The notes under the pieces are model-generated. The model was not told the origin of the DNA and made no database searches. It was given only the letters and a program-made list of their open reading frames with translations. Positions 16,094 to 24,744 of a stretch of DNA of 64,000 nucleotides are shown in pieces. How positions within the stretch are numbered: position 1 is the first letter of the stretch; each line of letters begins with the position of its first letter. Location: positions 1 to 64,000 of the forward strand of contig CANQQA010000012.1 of assembly GCA_947625885.1 (NCBI GenBank). Direction: 5' to 3'. Origin of the DNA: an uncultured Bacteroidales bacterium. Lineage in GTDB: Bacteria > Bacteroidota > Bacteroidia > Bacteroidales > UBA11471. The position numbers were made by a program, and so were the translations under genes.

Positions 16094-17044
16094 TCAATTC
16101 ACTAAAATCACTTTCGATTTGTCGCGCGGCTTGGCGGCGGGCGCTTCGTCGGGATAGCCTACGGCAATGGCATAGAGCAGTTCATAATCGTCGGAAAAAG
16201 CCAACCGTTGGAGATAGGGAGCCGCATCGGGGTTGCTTTTCATAAATCCGATAGGACCGCCGAGACAGCAGGTGCCCAGCCCTAACGATTTTGCCGCCAA
16301 CATGATATTTTCGGCCAGCAGACCGCAATCGAACTGTGCTGCGCCGCTGCGGGGCGACCCGATGAATATCACCGCCGGAGCGTTGCGGAACATGTTTTTG
16401 AACGAGGGGTCGTCGGCAGCTTTCGGATTGGCTTTCTTATAGACTTCGGTAATGCCGTCGATGTATTCCGGATTATCGACGATGCGCACCTCCCATTGCT
16501 GACGATTCACCGCGCTGGGAGCGTTGATGCCGCACTCCGCCAGCCGCCACAACAGTTCGCGCGGCACGGGGCGGTCTTCATACTTGCGTATGCTGCGGCG
16601 CTCCATGATGGTCTTTATCACGTCGTTTTCGTAAGCGGTAACCGGCTCACCCTCGCGGCAAAGACGCAGCGCCTCGGCACCGGAAGAAGTATAGAATGCA
16701 AGGGTTTTATCTTTTATTTTATACGACACGGTGGCGTAAATCGCATCCATGACCTGATGCTCGGTCGCGGCTTCGGCGCAGAAGCGCATAGTCGAACCCA
16801 GCTCGCCGAATTTCAGTTGGTCGTCTTTCACCGTACACGGGCCGAAGAAATTGTTGCAGCCGTTGCAGCCGTGCACTTTTTCCAAACCTTCTTCAAAGGT
16901 AATGAACGCCGTATCGGCAATGGCAACGGGCTGCCCGTACACGGTTTCGATAATCCATTTGCCTTGCAGGGTTCCCGACTGTTGCGAGCAGGCGGCAACG
17001 GTCGCTGCCAGCAAAACAAGCGAAATAAAAAGATACTTTTTCAT
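16094..17044 (-). CDS. Lipoprotein with N-terminal META/HslJ-like domain fused to a nitroreductase domain
   Basis: Lipobox 'LLAATVAAC'; 'GTLQGKWIIETVYGQPV...GCNGCNNFFGPC' (META); 'IMERRSIRKYEDRPVPRELLWRLAECGINAPSAVNRQQWEVRIV' (nitroreductase). Confidence 0.88.
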   Translation of the reverse strand: MKKYLFISLVLLAATVAACSQQSGTLQGKWIIETVYGQPVAIADTAFITFEEGLEKVHGCNGCNNFFGPCTVKDDQLKFGELGSTMRFCAEAATEHQVMDAIYATVSYKIKDKTLAFYTSSGAEALRLCREGEPVTAYENDVIKTIMERRSIRKYEDRPVPRELLWRLAECGINAPSAVNRQQWEVRIVDNPEYIDGITEVYKKANPKAADDPSFKNMFRNAPAVIFIGSPRSGAAQFDCGLLAENIMLAAKSLGLGTCCLGGPIGFMKSNPDAAPYLQRLAFSDDYELLYAIAVGYPDEAPAAKPRDKSKVILVN

Positions 17045-17211: not shown

Positions 17212-18333
17212 TTATTCGTAGAGCGATGCCACGAATGCGGCAAGTTCTTCGCCGCGCAGGTCTTGGGCGACGATTTTACCGTCGGGGTCGAGTATGTACA
17301 TACGGGGTATTCCGGTTACGTTGTAACGGGCAGCCACGGGGCATTCCCAACCTTTCAGCGAGGAGACGTGATGCCAGTTCAAGCCGTGTTTTTCGATAGC
17401 GGCTTTCCACGCTTCGGCGTCTTCGTCGAGAGAGATTCCGTATATCTCGAAACCTTTGTCATGGTATTTCTCGTAGATGGCTTTCACGTTAGGCGCTTCG
17501 CGCAGGCAGGGACCGCACCACGAAGCCCAAAAGTCGATCAGCACATAGTGTCCGCGCAGGCTCGACAGGGCAAGTTCGGCACCGTCGGGCGTCGGCAGCA
17601 CGACATCGGGAGCGATACCGCCCACCGATACCGACGAAAGGGCATCGACAGCAGCTTTCGCTTCGAGACCCGGAGCCGACTGTTTCACGCGGTCGCTCAG
17701 ATTTTCGTAGGCAGTGCTTATTTCCTCAAAGGTGTTTTTGCGAATCATGTGCTCTTTGATGAAATAGGCTGCACCGTAATTGTTGCGGGCAGAGTCGACA
17801 AAGAGCAGACACTGTTTGGCGATGTTCGCCTTTATCGTATCGAGCGCCAATACTGCCGAGTCGAGATTTACATCTAAATCGCCGGAAACGATTTTCGAGA
17901 GCATCAGCATACTGCCGAGATCCATCATCGCCGACGAGAGCATCAGGTCGTTAGCCTGTGCGTATACCTCCTGTTCATCGCCTTCGGCAACGATAGCCGT
18001 AGACACATATTCGTTACTGTCTCTGTCGAGGCGGGTTTCGGGAGCAATCGTTACGGTTACGGGAACTTCGGAAAGCAGCAGCCCCTTGTTCTGACCGTCG
18101 GCAGTGAGGATATAAGCGCCTACCACACCGCCTTTATCGAACGAAAAAGTACCGTCGGCAGCCACGACTACCGAATCGGTCGGCGCGGCGTCGTCTGCGT
18201 TATCGGTTTTCGGTTGCAGATAGACGGTTTTTCCCACACCCTCTTTCCATGTGCCTTCGACTTGGTGCGGCTGCGAGCACGAAGCAAGCGCCAGCACCGT
18301 CAAGGCAGCAAGAAGACAATTGTTCGTTTTCAT
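17212..18333 (-). CDS. TlpA-like thiol:disulfide oxidoreductase lipoprotein (DUF4369-like + thioredoxin-like domain)
   Basis: Lipobox 'LALASC'; 'HYVLIDFWASWCGPCLREAPNVKAIYEKY'. Confidence 0.9.
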   Translation of the reverse strand: MKTNNCLLAALTVLALASCSQPHQVEGTWKEGVGKTVYLQPKTDNADDAAPTDSVVVAADGTFSFDKGGVVGAYILTADGQNKGLLLSEVPVTVTIAPETRLDRDSNEYVSTAIVAEGDEQEVYAQANDLMLSSAMMDLGSMLMLSKIVSGDLDVNLDSAVLALDTIKANIAKQCLLFVDSARNNYGAAYFIKEHMIRKNTFEEISTAYENLSDRVKQSAPGLEAKAAVDALSSVSVGGIAPDVVLPTPDGAELALSSLRGHYVLIDFWASWCGPCLREAPNVKAIYEKYHDKGFEIYGISLDEDAEAWKAAIEKHGLNWHHVSSLKGWECPVAARYNVTGIPRMYILDPDGKIVAQDLRGEELAAFVASLYE

Positions 18334-18418: not shown

Positions 18419-19660
18419 TTATTCCGCTTTGTCGGCGAGGGTAATGCCCAGATCGGCAAATATTTCCTTTACCAGATTCATACGTTTTTGCATATCGGGC
18501 AGCAAATCCTCTTTCACTTTTTTGCCGAGAGTTCCGTACGATTCCCCATCTGACTGCAATCCGTAGAAAGCATTATCGGGATTGGCGGCAGCAGCCGCTA
18601 CTTCAGCCCAGAAAGCCTCTTTTTCGGCAGCCGTGGTGGTTACGATGAAAGCCACATAGTCGCCCAATGCCTGTGCATGAGAAGTACGATAATACTGATA
18701 CAATGTAAAAGATTCATCGTTTTTGTTCTTCTGGTGCACATATACTTGTTGTACACCTATACGAGCCCGACGCAACTCGCAACCGATCCATGCATCCCAT
18801 GTATGCCAAGTCTCTTCGCCGCCGAACGACAAGTGTTTCCACTCGTCTTCATCAACATAAGAGGAGTCGCCAAGATTCGTCCAACCCTGCACAAAATCAT
18901 CAGCATCGGATTCGTAATATCCCATGCAATTTTCATTCATGGAAAAGAAGCCCATGCCAAAGTCTGACAAATCGGCTCCGACCGTATAATCGTAACCTAT
19001 CTGTTTGAATGCCTCAAATTTAGGGCTGTTCAACGGGTGGTCTTCCTGATTGAGCGTGTAAGAGTATATGTATTCGCAAATCAGCGACACGTAGAGGCGT
19101 TTCAGATAGTTTTTATCCATCGTGTCGAAATCGGGGCAGCAGTGCGAAAACATGATAAATTCGGGGCAGCAGGTTCCGCCTTCGAATGTACCGTGCACGT
19201 CATAAGCGATATTATAATATGCAACTTCCTTATCAGCCACCCAATAATTAAATTGCATTTCGCTGGCAAAATAGATTTTACGCGGCATATACTTCTGTAT
19301 AAATTCGGTGCCGAATACGGGGAATACTTCGTCTTCGAGGAAATTCAACACCTTATATATGTAACCGGTATCGGCAGGAACATAATACTGTCCATAAAAA
19401 TCGGGAACATCTTCGCCCTTGGGATCTTCAGGCGACGGACGATTTCCATAGATGAACATGGAACCGTCCGGAGAGGCGTAGCGGAAAGTTGCCGTATCGA
19501 CATCGACTACGGCATCGAGGTTGTAGGTATCGTTAAAGATATCAATGGCTTTGGCAGCCGGCACATAGGGCTCGACTTCGGGTTCATCGTTCGTGTCGTC
19601 GCAAGCAGCGAACAACGCAGCCGCTGCAAAGAGCGGTGCAAAAAGCAGGATTTTTTTCAT
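18419..19660 (-). CDS. Putative zinc-metallopeptidase-family (Peptidase_Mx1-like) lipoprotein with apparent loss of HExxH
   Basis: Lipobox 'ALFAAC'; directly downstream of susD; the region where HExxH is expected reads 'LKRLYVSLICEYIYSYTLNQ'; C-term 'MQKRMNLVKEIFADLGITL' fits the family ending. Confidence 0.65.
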   Translation of the reverse strand: MKKILLFAPLFAAAALFAACDDTNDEPEVEPYVPAAKAIDIFNDTYNLDAVVDVDTATFRYASPDGSMFIYGNRPSPEDPKGEDVPDFYGQYYVPADTGYIYKVLNFLEDEVFPVFGTEFIQKYMPRKIYFASEMQFNYWVADKEVAYYNIAYDVHGTFEGGTCCPEFIMFSHCCPDFDTMDKNYLKRLYVSLICEYIYSYTLNQEDHPLNSPKFEAFKQIGYDYTVGADLSDFGMGFFSMNENCMGYYESDADDFVQGWTNLGDSSYVDEDEWKHLSFGGEETWHTWDAWIGCELRRARIGVQQVYVHQKNKNDESFTLYQYYRTSHAQALGDYVAFIVTTTAAEKEAFWAEVAAAAANPDNAFYGLQSDGESYGTLGKKVKEDLLPDMQKRMNLVKEIFADLGITLADKAE

Positions 19661-19689: not shown

Positions 19690-21228
19690 TCAGTTGTTTT
19701 CATAAGGCAGCATTTGACGGAGTGGTCGGGCATTGGTATTCTGGGGATTGAGAAGGCGCTCATCGCTCGGGAAATTCAGGGTGTAGGCGCCGTCGTCTTT
19801 TTCCAGCTTATAATATCCTGAGGTTTTGCCGTAAGGGTGTATGATTTCGGGGCGTGTGGTGCGGCGCAGGTCTATCCAGCGGTGGAGCTCCTCGAAACAG
19901 AGCTCGCGGCGCCGCTCGTCCCAAATGAATTGCACAATGGCATCGGAAGAGACGAAATCAGCTGGGTTCAGCTCGACATACGCCTGACTGTCCAAGCGGT
20001 ATTTACGCAGGCGATTGGCATAGTCGAGCGCCTTACCGTAATCGGGCGAGGCTTTGCGGGCATAGGCTTCGGCAAGGGTTACGTAGGCTTCTGCCGTGCG
20101 AAAAGCCGAATGGCGGTAAAGATTGTCATACAAATTGTATTTCAGTGGGTGATAATTTCCCTCCAAATAATAAATGTGTGTCGACGGTTTATGGGGCATG
20201 ATGAACCAATAGGGCATGCGGTGGTCGCCCACATGGGTCAGCGTGTCGTAGTCGTAGCAGTCCACCAGATTGTTGTCGATGGTGTGCGACACGCAAAAGG
20301 TCTGATCCATGGAGTTGACCGTCATGATAAGGCTGTTGATATCCCTCAGGCTCCGGTTTCCCGTGTAAACGAATATGAATTCGGGATTGGCGGGCTGAAA
20401 GAAGTTGTCGTATTTGGACGAATAGGATTCCTCGCCCGGAGCCACCGCCGTGATGCGGTCGGTAATATCGAAAAGTTTGTCGTTGTCGTTCAGTATCTCG
20501 GAGGCATATTCGATAACGGCATCGAAATTTTCGGTGTAGAGGGCTTCGCGCATGGCAACGAAAAGCATGGCGTCGTATCCGATGTAGTAATAGTTTCCGG
20601 TCTTTTTCCCCTTCAAGGCAGCCAACCCCTCTTTTATGTCGTCTTCGATAAGGGCATACACCTCACCGAAAGTGGCGCGGTAATAGGGCTCCAACGAGGG
20701 AGTGGGGTCGGTTTTCAGGGGCACGCACTCGGTATCGGGCGTCGCTTTGTCGTAGGGCACGGCATAGAGGTTTGCCAGCAGCAGATAGGCATAGGCACGG
20801 TGAAAGAGCGCCTGTCCGCGCAAGATGTCTTTCTCTTCGTCGGAGCCTTCGAGATCGGGCAGAGCGTCGAGGCAGGTATTGGCAAGAAGCACCTGCGAAT
20901 AGAGGTAGCCGAACAGTTCGTCATTGAAACCCTCATCGGGTATTTCCAATTCGTCGCGCCACTGATAAGCGTAGCGGTAATAGTTCAGGTTGAAAGGCAA
21001 AGCATTGTCCCACAAAGGGGTGTACAATTCCATGTCGTCGGTCATGAGATTGAGCCAAACGCCGTATTGGAGCAAATTGTCGAAATAGCCTTCGCCTTGC
21101 AGAATTTCGGCGTAATCGCTGCACGTGGTGGGGATTACCAAGTTCTGCGCCGAACGCTCCAAAAAATCGTCGCAACTGCAAAGCAGCGCAGCCAGAGCTA
21201 TGAAGTATGTCGTTGTTTCACGTATCAT
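19690..21228 (-). CDS. RagB/SusD-family nutrient uptake outer membrane lipoprotein
   Basis: Lipoprotein signal 'LLCSCDDFLERSAQ', TPR-like SusD body, 'FIWDERRRELCFEELHRWIDLRR' signature. Confidence 0.95.
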   Translation of the reverse strand: MIRETTTYFIALAALLCSCDDFLERSAQNLVIPTTCSDYAEILQGEGYFDNLLQYGVWLNLMTDDMELYTPLWDNALPFNLNYYRYAYQWRDELEIPDEGFNDELFGYLYSQVLLANTCLDALPDLEGSDEEKDILRGQALFHRAYAYLLLANLYAVPYDKATPDTECVPLKTDPTPSLEPYYRATFGEVYALIEDDIKEGLAALKGKKTGNYYYIGYDAMLFVAMREALYTENFDAVIEYASEILNDNDKLFDITDRITAVAPGEESYSSKYDNFFQPANPEFIFVYTGNRSLRDINSLIMTVNSMDQTFCVSHTIDNNLVDCYDYDTLTHVGDHRMPYWFIMPHKPSTHIYYLEGNYHPLKYNLYDNLYRHSAFRTAEAYVTLAEAYARKASPDYGKALDYANRLRKYRLDSQAYVELNPADFVSSDAIVQFIWDERRRELCFEELHRWIDLRRTTRPEIIHPYGKTSGYYKLEKDDGAYTLNFPSDERLLNPQNTNARPLRQMLPYENN

Positions 21229-21246: not shown

Positions 21247-24200
21247 TTAAAAGCCGATGGTTACCGACAAGGAGTAGGTACGGGGTATCGAGGAGTTTGC
21301 CATAGGACCCTGTTCGGGGTCGAAACCGTGCCAGCGTTTGTCGGCGATGATGAAGAGGTTGTTTGCCTGAGCCGAAATCTGGAAATTGGAGAGGTGCATT
21401 TTCTGCAACATCTTCGTGTCGAAGATATAGGAAAGCGAGAGACTGCGCAGGCGGAAGTTGTCGGTGGAGCATACCCGTGCGGTGGAATAGTCGTACATGG
21501 TGGTACCGCTCTTTCTGTTGACATTGTCGCGCATGGGACGGACGCCCAGATTTTCATAGGTATGGTCGTCGTACAGGGCGGGAATATCGGTATGCGCCTC
21601 GTCGCCGGGCTTTTCCCAGCGGTCGTTCAATTCGCGGGAAAGATTTTTTTCGGGGTCGAACACGGAGTCGTAGTCGCCATAAAGGAAAGGCAGACGTCCG
21701 ACAGCGCCCAACGAATAGGTGAACGAACCTCTCAGCGTCCAGTTCCGAATGCGGTATTCGAGGTTGATACCGCCGGTATGGGGAGGCGTCAGGACACCCG
21801 ACTTTTCCAAAGCGATTTCGTCGTCGTAGAGGGTATAGTTTTTATAGGTCTTGCTGCCCCACGTCGCTTCGGTGTTTCCGACAGCATCGTAAAAGAGCGG
21901 CAATCCCGTATCGTGATCGAGACCGGCAAAAGGATAGGAATAAATGGTACCGAGACTCTCTCCGACAAGCAGGGCAGAGCCCGATATCATGTTGTCGAGG
22001 GTATTGGAGACTTCGTCGTTGGCTTTCATCAGTTTGTTTTTATTATAGGAATGTATGAAACCGATGACCAAGCGCATCTTTTTATTTTGTACGGGCGTGA
22101 ATTTCAACGCCAGTTCGAAGCCGCTGTTGTTCACGTTTCCGCCGTTGATTTTTCGAATCGTGTAGCCGTTTACCGCCGAAATGGTTTTGTTCATAATCAT
22201 ATCGGTGCCCACTTTTTTATAGACATCGACGGTGCCGGTAATGCGGTCGCCCAAGAAGGAGAAATCGAGACCGACGTTGTACTGGGTGGTCTTTTCCCAG
22301 TGCAGGTCGGGATTGGGCCAATATGCCACCGTAGACGAGGCTATGCCTGTCTGCGAACTGATGTTTCCGATTGCCATGACGAGGTCGGGCGAAGTGCCTT
22401 TATCGACATTGCCCTGTATACCGTAGGAAGCTCTGACAGCCAGATAGGAAAGCCAGTCTTTGCAAGCGCCCATGAAATGTTCGTTGGTCAAAGCGTACTT
22501 TCCTGCCACCGACCAAATGGGGAGGAAGCGGTATTCGGGATTTTCGCCGAACTGATTGGAGCCGTCCATACGCACATTGGCATTGATGGTGTAGGTGTCT
22601 TTATAGGAATAAATTCCCGAGAAAATCCACGAAACCGTGTTGGCGTGATTGTCTACGATACCGGGCGTGTGGCGACCGAGCTTTATATCATTCAGATAAT
22701 AATCGGTGTATGCCGGCGAAATGATTTGCCCGCGCTCGGGCATCCAGCCGTAATAGGTACCGGAAAAACCGTCGGTGATGACGCTGCGCAACTCCGAAGT
22801 GCCCAATGCGCTGACGAGGTGTCCGTTGAAGTCTTTGGAATAAGAGAGGGTGTTGCGCAGGTCGAGGGTGGTTTTGGTCGTTTCGCTCTTGCTGATAAGA
22901 CCGCCCTGTGCCAGAACGCTGTTGTCCCACGCCGGCGTGCCGAATTCCAAATCGTCTTTTATCCAGCCGCGTATTTCATTGACGCAATAAGAATCGTCTT
23001 TCGCCCATGCGTTGGTCTTCACCGCATTATATACATAGGAGCCGGTGAGCTCGTAGCGCAGCCCGTCGTAAATCTTCCAGACGAAATTGAAGAGTCCGGT
23101 AATAGCGCCTATATCGGATTCGTTTCCGGTGGCTTCGGCTTCGTGCAGGGCATTGAAACGGTAAGTACCGCCACTCATGTTACTGAAAGAGAATACTTCG
23201 TAAGGCTTGTAAAAAAAGAGGGAGCCGTCGTCGTTGTATGCCGGTATGGTGCGGGCGGTTTCGCGCGCATAGGAATCGGGATTGAACGTGGGGTAATAAC
23301 CCTCGTTGTGGGAGATGTTTCCGTTCAAAGAAAATCCGAAATAGACTCTGGGGTGCACCCATGAGGAGAGTTTCAGCATGGCGGTGTAGCGCCGAGCGAG
23401 ACTTTCGTTGCCGGTACCCGGCGTGTTGGAAACACCGAGCGAGGCGTAATAGGTGGTGGTGGAGGTTCCGCCCGAAAGCCCGAGCGTATGATTCTGTGAA
23501 ACGGAATTGCGGAAAAGGAGGTCGAACCAGTCGGTGTTGCGGGTAATCATTTCATCGACGGCATCGTTGAATTCCGCACGCGAAAGCATCTTGGAATCAT
23601 ACTGCATTTTCAACATCTCGTAGCCGAGATTGAACTGGTTGCGGGTATATGCCAGACGACCCGCCAACAAATCTTTCGAGAGCTGCACGCGCTCGCCGGC
23701 ATCCATGAGATAGAGGCGGCGGTAGTTTTCGCGCTGATTGACCGAAACGGAACCGTTGTAGGTAATCCGCGGCGCTCCGCGATGCCCTTTTTTCGTGGTA
23801 ACGACAATGACGCCGTTGGCAGCCTGAATACCGTAAATAGCTGTTGCCGAAGCGTCTTTGAGGACGGTGATACTCTCGATATCGCTCGGATTGACACCGG
23901 CAATGGCATTACCGACCAGATACTGGGCATCGTCGGCAAGGGGGTCGAGATTGCCGCTCGCGTCCCAATTCACGCTGTTGTCGTCGAGAATGATGCCGTC
24001 GAGCACCCAAAGCGGGGCGGTATTGCCATAGAGGGAGGAGGTACCGCGAATACGGATTTTCGGGGTTGCGCTCGGGTCGCCGCTGGTCGTCAAGACGGAC
24101 ATACCGGCAACCTGTCCCGCCAACATTTGGTCGATAGAAAACTTGTCGGCCAGCTGTATTTCGTCCATATCCAGTTGAGAAACCGCACTCGCCAATTCCC

Positions 24201-24549
24201 TGCGGTTGATGTTTTGATAACCCGTTACGACCACCTCGTCCATATAGGTGCTTTTCGGATAGAGGGTTATATCGACTTCGGTACGGGGTCCGACAAGCAC
24301 TTCCTGCGTCTCGAAACCGATGCAGGAAAACACGAGCATCGAAGTTTCACCTTGCGTAATTGAAATAGTATAATTGCCGTCGATGTTGGTAATAACAGCA
24401 CTGCCCGTACGATTTTTTTCCTGTACGGTTACTCCTATCAAACTTTCGCCTGACTCGCTGACAACTTTACCTTTGACAATTCTTCTGTCTTTGGCAAATG
24501 CCTGTACGGCAAGCAAAAGCAGCAAAATTATTCCCGCATATTTTTTCAT
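21247..24549 (-). CDS. SusC/RagA-family TonB-linked outer membrane protein
   Basis: Carboxypeptidase-D-like domain, 'DEVVVTGYQNINRRELASAVSQL', plug 'AIYGIQAANGVIVVTTKKG', C-terminal barrel. Start taken at MKKYAGIILLLLL (24549); 24561 is also possible. Confidence 0.95.
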   Translation of the reverse strand: MKKYAGIILLLLLAVQAFAKDRRIVKGKVVSESGESLIGVTVQEKNRTGSAVITNIDGNYTISITQGETSMLVFSCIGFETQEVLVGPRTEVDITLYPKSTYMDEVVVTGYQNINRRELASAVSQLDMDEIQLADKFSIDQMLAGQVAGMSVLTTSGDPSATPKIRIRGTSSLYGNTAPLWVLDGIILDDNSVNWDASGNLDPLADDAQYLVGNAIAGVNPSDIESITVLKDASATAIYGIQAANGVIVVTTKKGHRGAPRITYNGSVSVNQRENYRRLYLMDAGERVQLSKDLLAGRLAYTRNQFNLGYEMLKMQYDSKMLSRAEFNDAVDEMITRNTDWFDLLFRNSVSQNHTLGLSGGTSTTTYYASLGVSNTPGTGNESLARRYTAMLKLSSWVHPRVYFGFSLNGNISHNEGYYPTFNPDSYARETARTIPAYNDDGSLFFYKPYEVFSFSNMSGGTYRFNALHEAEATGNESDIGAITGLFNFVWKIYDGLRYELTGSYVYNAVKTNAWAKDDSYCVNEIRGWIKDDLEFGTPAWDNSVLAQGGLISKSETTKTTLDLRNTLSYSKDFNGHLVSALGTSELRSVITDGFSGTYYGWMPERGQIISPAYTDYYLNDIKLGRHTPGIVDNHANTVSWIFSGIYSYKDTYTINANVRMDGSNQFGENPEYRFLPIWSVAGKYALTNEHFMGACKDWLSYLAVRASYGIQGNVDKGTSPDLVMAIGNISSQTGIASSTVAYWPNPDLHWEKTTQYNVGLDFSFLGDRITGTVDVYKKVGTDMIMNKTISAVNGYTIRKINGGNVNNSGFELALKFTPVQNKKMRLVIGFIHSYNKNKLMKANDEVSNTLDNMISGSALLVGESLGTIYSYPFAGLDHDTGLPLFYDAVGNTEATWGSKTYKNYTLYDDEIALEKSGVLTPPHTGGINLEYRIRNWTLRGSFTYSLGAVGRLPFLYGDYDSVFDPEKNLSRELNDRWEKPGDEAHTDIPALYDDHTYENLGVRPMRDNVNRKSGTTMYDYSTARVCSTDNFRLRSLSLSYIFDTKMLQKMHLSNFQISAQANNLFIIADKRWHGFDPEQGPMANSSIPRTYSLSVTIGF

Positions 24550-24744
24550 AGCACTTTGCATAATGGCATTTCTGAACGAAAATTTGCGTCTTAAACAAAT
24601 CTTTTTTAGATATTTGTTTACAACATGCCGGCGCAAAGATATAAAATATCTGCAAAAAAGAAACTAATTATTGAAATATTTTTTTTATAACTGTTGCAAA
24701 TTCATGTGTTTCACTACAAATATAAACATAAAAAGCATATATTA

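Follow-up and report, generated by a model that had tools for sequence, protein, structure and literature searches.

Genomic context and lipoprotein features

The window, a 64,000-nucleotide stretch of a contig from an uncultured Bacteroidales bacterium, carries on its minus strand an open reading frame with an ATG start (18419-19660) that encodes a 413-residue lipoprotein, referred to below as the window protein (Table 1). An original prediction, made from the letters alone, placed this gene after susD and described its product as a metallopeptidase-family lipoprotein that had lost its HExxH motif. The position is as described: the gene lies directly after susD (19690-21228), with susC and susD both just upstream on the same strand. 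No peptidase gene adjoins it at this locus, only a thioredoxin-like one. Elsewhere on the minus strand, at 16094-17044, one lipoprotein-like ORF joins a META domain (72 bits with Pfam META) to a nitroreductase (97 bits with Pfam Nitroreductase).

Table 1. Features of the locus and of the window protein, in window coordinates
Feature	Position	Strand	Basis and remarks
HExxH-less, M93/Peptidase_Mx1-like, probably surface-exposed lipoprotein, 413 aa, third gene of the SusCD operon	18419..19660	-	
SusD-like lipoprotein	19690..21228	-	Pfam SusD-like_3, SusD_RagB
SusC/RagA TonB-linked outer-membrane transporter	21247..24636	-	TIGR04056, 647 bits; start possibly 24561
Thioredoxin-like (Redoxin/AhpC-TSA) lipoprotein	17212..18333	-	Downstream; conserved neighbour in related loci
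Lipobox Cys20 codon	19601..19603	-	Sequence ...LFAAC20; Cys invariant in 71-member alignment
Acidic stretch DDTNDEPEVEP after the lipid Cys	19568..19600	-	Resembles the Bacteroidetes lipoprotein export signal
CC-x7-HCC motif (C164, C165, H173, C174, C175)	19136..19171	-	Edge strand beside the former active site; absent from relatives outside the genus in the alignment
Cys245, fifth invariant non-lipobox Cys	18926..18928	-	
Helix replacing the HHEFxHxLHQ active-site helix, residues 190-204 YVSLICEYIYSYTLN, without zinc-binding His	19049..19093	-	hhalign; joint alignment; DSSP helix 183-204 in predicted model
Ala337 at the third zinc-ligand position (family EDFvE, window GDYVA)	18650..18652	-	Joint alignment

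The window protein combines a signal peptide, a lipobox, and acidic residues after the cysteine, as would be expected of a surface lipoprotein of a SusCD utilisome. The predicted lipobox could be confirmed as ...LFAAC20, with the acidic residues DDTNDEPEVE after the cysteine. The lipoprotein export signal of B. fragilis has the consensus SDDDD (PMC5080379), and the acidic run after the lipidated cysteine therefore suggests surface export; the window protein is thus probably exposed at the cell surface.

Relationship to Peptidase_Mx1

Peptidase_Mx1 (PF15890; MEROPS M93; TIGR04549, substrate import-associated zinc metallohydrolase lipoprotein) is represented in the PDB by 4l7a (BACCAC_01431) and 9urd, and its members resemble the window protein in being lipoproteins encoded directly downstream of susD. 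The original prediction assigned the window protein to this family, partly on the basis of a C-terminal sequence, QKRMNLVKEIFADLGITL, which is indeed found at the C-terminus as quoted. Direct searches of Pfam and NCBIfam with the window protein gave no match to PF15890 or TIGR04549 at E<=1, a direct search of the PDB gave none at E<=1, and neither a PF15890 search of the protein's own genome nor a search of a plasmid collection returned a match. The window protein does not reach the cut-off of the curated Peptidase_Mx1/M93 HMM, and it has neither the HExxH motif nor the downstream Glu of ED-F-x-E. Among its relatives, the orthologue P0003 matches PF15890 at E=0.035 (residues 91-138), and some relatives from outside the genus exceed the curated cut-off, L149 among them (31.8 bits versus 25.6).

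A connection to the family was found via intermediate sequences. A profile that included signal peptides (A3) produced dozens of false matches at positions 1-60, and trimmed profiles were therefore used afterwards. Profile A4, built from nine HExxH-less sequences without signal peptide (the window protein, three orthologues, and five relatives), recovered many more HExxH-less relatives and, despite being made of HExxH-less proteins only, also true HExxH Mx1 proteins (L098, L099, L101, L102, L120, L123, L124, and L134). More distant SusD-linked lipoproteins are present in other Bacteroidales families. Profile A6, which comprises 67 HExxH-less relatives (including L074, a paralogue from the genus member G005) and contains neither signal peptides nor same-genus orthologues, detected the window gene (E=3e-15) when run against the genome of the window, and in a sister species it picked up a genuine HExxH Mx1 protein (E=1e-10). 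The window protein scored 78 bits in a local set of 667 ORFs and proteins, where the best unrelated decoy reached 6 bits. When the HExxH-less group was compared with the HExxH members by hhalign, the probability was 99.0% (E 3e-18) without signal peptides and 99.6% with them. An hmmsearch of the PDB with the 71-member profile A5 matched 9urd (9.6e-11) and 4l7a (2.9e-5), the latter over profile positions 100-284 and hence not dependent on the signal peptide, and PF15890 is matched at E<=0.01 by 20 of the 71 members. The direct match of the HExxH profile A7 to the window protein was insignificant (E=0.2). Based on the bridge through intermediates, we accept that the window protein shares ancestry with M93 at the superfamily level, whereas we do not accept membership of the curated family, because the defining motif is absent. 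The original assignment consequently stands as a distant homology and falls as curated-HMM membership.

The predicted structures are less clear-cut, and the shared ancestry is not argued from them. An AlphaFold2 model from the four orthologous sequences (pTM 0.59) had 4l7a as its top Foldseek match, a weak one (E 0.08, probability 0.84), with weak matches to other zincins following, and a model from the 71-member alignment (pTM 0.74) gave no significant PDB match. Residues of about 227-324, roughly 100 in number, form a mostly low-confidence insertion particular to the window's genus.

Absence of the zinc ligands

The active-site region quoted in the original prediction, LICEYIYSYTLNQ, is present at residues 193-205. 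In profile and multiple alignments alike, HHEFxH of the HExxH members aligns to I194-C195-E196-Y197-I198-(Y199/S200/Y201), where reaching the column of the second His needs an insertion of one or two residues in the window protein and the register may be off by one or two positions. Irrespective of register, HExxH is absent from the whole of the window protein and from its three orthologues, and judging from the sequences no HExxH-type zinc site remains. The proposed replacement of both zinc-binding His is thereby borne out, and the His loss, which the original prediction had suggested checking in orthologues, is common to them (83, 73, and 48% identical). The third ligand, which we take to be the Glu of ED-F-x-E from its invariance in HExxH members and from zincin precedent, is also gone. 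This change (Glu to Ala337) had escaped the original prediction, whose pseudoprotease idea is otherwise upheld as a reading; in the alignment, all three ligands are missing in the window protein and in each of the three orthologues. The only His residues invariant across these four sequences are H173 and H286, and a zinc site rebuilt elsewhere in the protein was rejected on this ground and for the complete absence of HExxH.

The view that the Glu and the flanking LNQ had been kept as remnants of the active site did not hold. E196 does fall in the catalytic-Glu column and is invariant in the genus, but it is lineage-specific, as the nearest relatives outside the genus (L086, L092, and L149 in the tree) have no Glu there. 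The LNQ position reads LNQ, LNL, LNQ, and ANS in the four orthologous sequences, thus varying even within the genus, and it is not a kept family feature because the HExxH consensus at this position is mostly LHQ.

Beside the former active site, the four orthologous sequences (orthologues 48-83% identical to the window protein) share five invariant non-lipobox Cys as well as H173. Residues C164-C175 are located at the edge strand aligning with GTAEGGxKIxLY of the HExxH members. These Cys and H173, close to the former cleft, may make up a metal site of a new kind or be engaged in disulfides, which is at once the least certain and the most specific oddity of the window protein.

Orthologues and evolutionary rate

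Full-length orthologues were found at 83% identity (L004, on a separate public contig) and at 73% and 48% identity in two same-genus genomes, in both of which the order susC-susD-lipoprotein-thioredoxin is kept. Between the window and G005, the lipoprotein is 73% identical with a dN/dS of 0.51, compared to 94% and 0.16 for SusC; such faster evolution of the lipoprotein fits an exposed protein. Chance or decay does not account for the loss, given that the HExxH-less orthologues are full length and dN/dS is about 0.5. The contig with the L004 locus is 4 kb long and belongs to a MAG labelled as an uncultured Clostridia bacterium; the SusCD-type operon on it suggests a misbinned Bacteroidales contig. 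The window's own genome has a second HExxH-less member (L180:6556-7455, contig C4 near 56.6 kb), which follows susC-susD and has a thioredoxin-like gene two genes downstream; a near-identical locus (L181) exists in the sister species G006.

A large HExxH-less clade in the third operon slot

A large unannotated group of proteins fills the third slot of many Bacteroidales SusC/SusD operons, and by sequence comparison the window protein is one leaf of this large HExxH-less clade, so that the loss is not local. The original prediction, which concerned a single protein, was therefore right about the loss and underestimated its scale. In all 40 loci retrieved from five genomes, an HExxH-less gene lies directly after susD on the same strand, usually preceded by susC and a FecR-type anti-sigma gene; since the loci were chosen by score against the HExxH-less profile, with HExxH matches appearing lower in the ranking, the zero count of HExxH among them is partly due to selection. 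HExxH members also occur directly after susD, in 24 of 24 loci. At least 20 distinct SusCD-linked HExxH-less loci were retrieved from G405 (a 5.57-Mb genome) and at least 14 from G403, counted by distinct loci because some genes are split into two matches in the raw match counts.

The tree places all 26 HExxH sequences in a single group (support 0.80), accompanied by one independently degenerate neighbour, L043. The tree was rooted by midpoint and does not fix the zinc state of the common ancestor, but M93 is listed among the zincins (PMC3890501), which makes loss of the zinc site the likelier direction. The neighbour itself (L043:8543-9544, SusCD-linked) has HHQFAKRL in place of HHEFxHxL and still scores 214 bits on PF15890; it apparently represents a separate loss of the catalytic Glu and the second His.

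Neighbouring genes

A thioredoxin-like gene is located downstream on the same strand in 25 of the 40 HExxH-less loci, and genes downstream in the same or other loci encode DUF4953 Met-zincins, S8, S9, S41, and aspartyl proteases, or an ABC-2 transporter pair. No glycan enzymes were found among the neighbours scanned. By association of neighbouring genes only, the peptidases and thioredoxin-like proteins, together with the lack of glycan enzymes, point to peptides or proteins as the substrate. Several SusC-SusD-M93-like operons (L138, L142, L146, L147, and similar) continue with a pair of genes for ~306-313 and 765-804 residues, which in L138, when scanned, proved to be an ABC-2 type ATPase and a protein with permease and ABC_transp_aux parts fused, a combination that is unusual alongside SusCD.

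Discussion

From the ancestry, the absent zinc site, the operon slot, and the expanded clade, we infer with moderate confidence that the window protein is a surface lipoprotein of M93 ancestry that serves a SusCD importer as its non-catalytic third subunit and most likely captures a peptide or protein segment. A putative binding-protein role for the window protein is reasonable. Glycan utilisomes have additional lipoproteins positioned on the SusC lip (PMC7618045). The window protein would similarly be placed on this lip beside SusD, where its old substrate cleft would take up a stretch of peptide or protein and retain it for import. Reduction and cleavage of the substrate would follow, carried out by the thioredoxin-like proteins and peptidases that these operons encode.

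Compared to Peptidase_Mx1/M93, with which it shares a profile along most of the sequence, the C-terminal KxxIVxxYxxxxWxIDxxxL helix included, the window protein lacks HExxH and the third Glu ligand and goes undetected by the curated models, the HExxH-less loci often have thioredoxin-like and other peptidase genes downstream, and the window's genus adds a Cys-rich motif and the insertion at about 227-324. SusE/SusF and SGBPlev, surface glycan-binding proteins of glycan utilisomes, are likewise non-catalytic lipoproteins encoded with susCD, and by analogy the window protein is probably also a capture subunit; however, it is M93-like rather than composed of SGBP domains, and no glycan-active enzymes were found encoded beside it. 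RagAB from Porphyromonas gingivalis is a SusCD-type transporter with, as here, a likely peptide or protein substrate, but it is described as a barrel plus lid (PMC11817032), whereas the window operon has a third lipoprotein after susD.

Other roles at the transporter can be envisaged. The protein could be a structural docking or lid-modulating subunit that binds no substrate and uses the zincin fold only as a scaffold, a reading that we regard as unlikely: the invariant slot after susD would fit a complex-specific partner, and fast evolution relative to SusC in the G005 pair fits a partner or a ligand-facing role alike, but the repeated pairing with peptidase and thioredoxin genes suggests a tie to substrate chemistry, and maintenance of the family in 20 diverged copies suggests ligand diversity. 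Enzymatic activity might instead persist through a metal or thiol site formed by C164, C165, H173, C174, C175, and C245 in place of HExxH, perhaps with redox exchange with the thioredoxin-like lipoprotein. The invariance of these residues, the alignment of C164-C175 with the GTAEGGxKIxLY strand, and the adjacent thioredoxin-like gene would all agree with this, yet we find it rather improbable, as the Cys set is limited to the genus, relatives without it are likewise followed by thioredoxin-like genes, the number of related sequences is small (four), and no known metalloenzyme motif was identified.

More radical alternatives concern the protein's origin and fate. If the protein were an unrelated SusCD-linked lipoprotein that resembles M93 through convergence or an artefact of alignment, this would explain the failure of the direct Pfam/NCBIfam searches, the E=0.2 obtained with A7, and the lack of a Foldseek match for the better AlphaFold2 model. 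Such an origin is very improbable in view of the two-way profile evidence via intermediates without signal peptides, the hmmsearch matches to 9urd and 4l7a, the operon slot shared with the HExxH members, and the PF15890 matches in 20/71 members. That the gene is a decaying peptidase heading for loss is scarcely credible: HExxH is lost, dN/dS is moderately high at 0.5, and four of the seven genus genomes yielded no orthologue, but three of those four are only 70-83% complete, the frames are full length and open in four lineages with many invariant residues, and the HExxH-less clade has multiplied. Recent decay was rejected on the strength of the full-length orthologues and this multiplication.

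Returning to the capture subunit, a broader version, which we put forward only tentatively, is that a zinc peptidase fold was recruited wholesale as a non-catalytic, peptide-capturing SusCD subunit. In some Bacteroidales it would have diversified until a genome held 20 or more paralogues, each paired with a separate importer and often with dedicated peptidases and thioredoxins, and in the window's genus a Cys/His cluster would have been added beside the dead active site. If this is true, the subunit would be the protein-world counterpart of the surface glycan-binding proteins. For many SusCD importers no substrate is known and no carbohydrate enzymes are encoded close by; the HExxH-less family would offer a handle on which of them import peptides, and a concrete family for ligand-binding work. 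Annotation by HExxH models misses most of the SusCD-linked group in some genomes. In searches of a collection of open-access papers, we found none describing HExxH-less SusCD lipoproteins; one RNA-seq table, from a study of iron limitation, lists a gene bearing the TIGR04549 name beside ragB/susC genes (PMC5429918).
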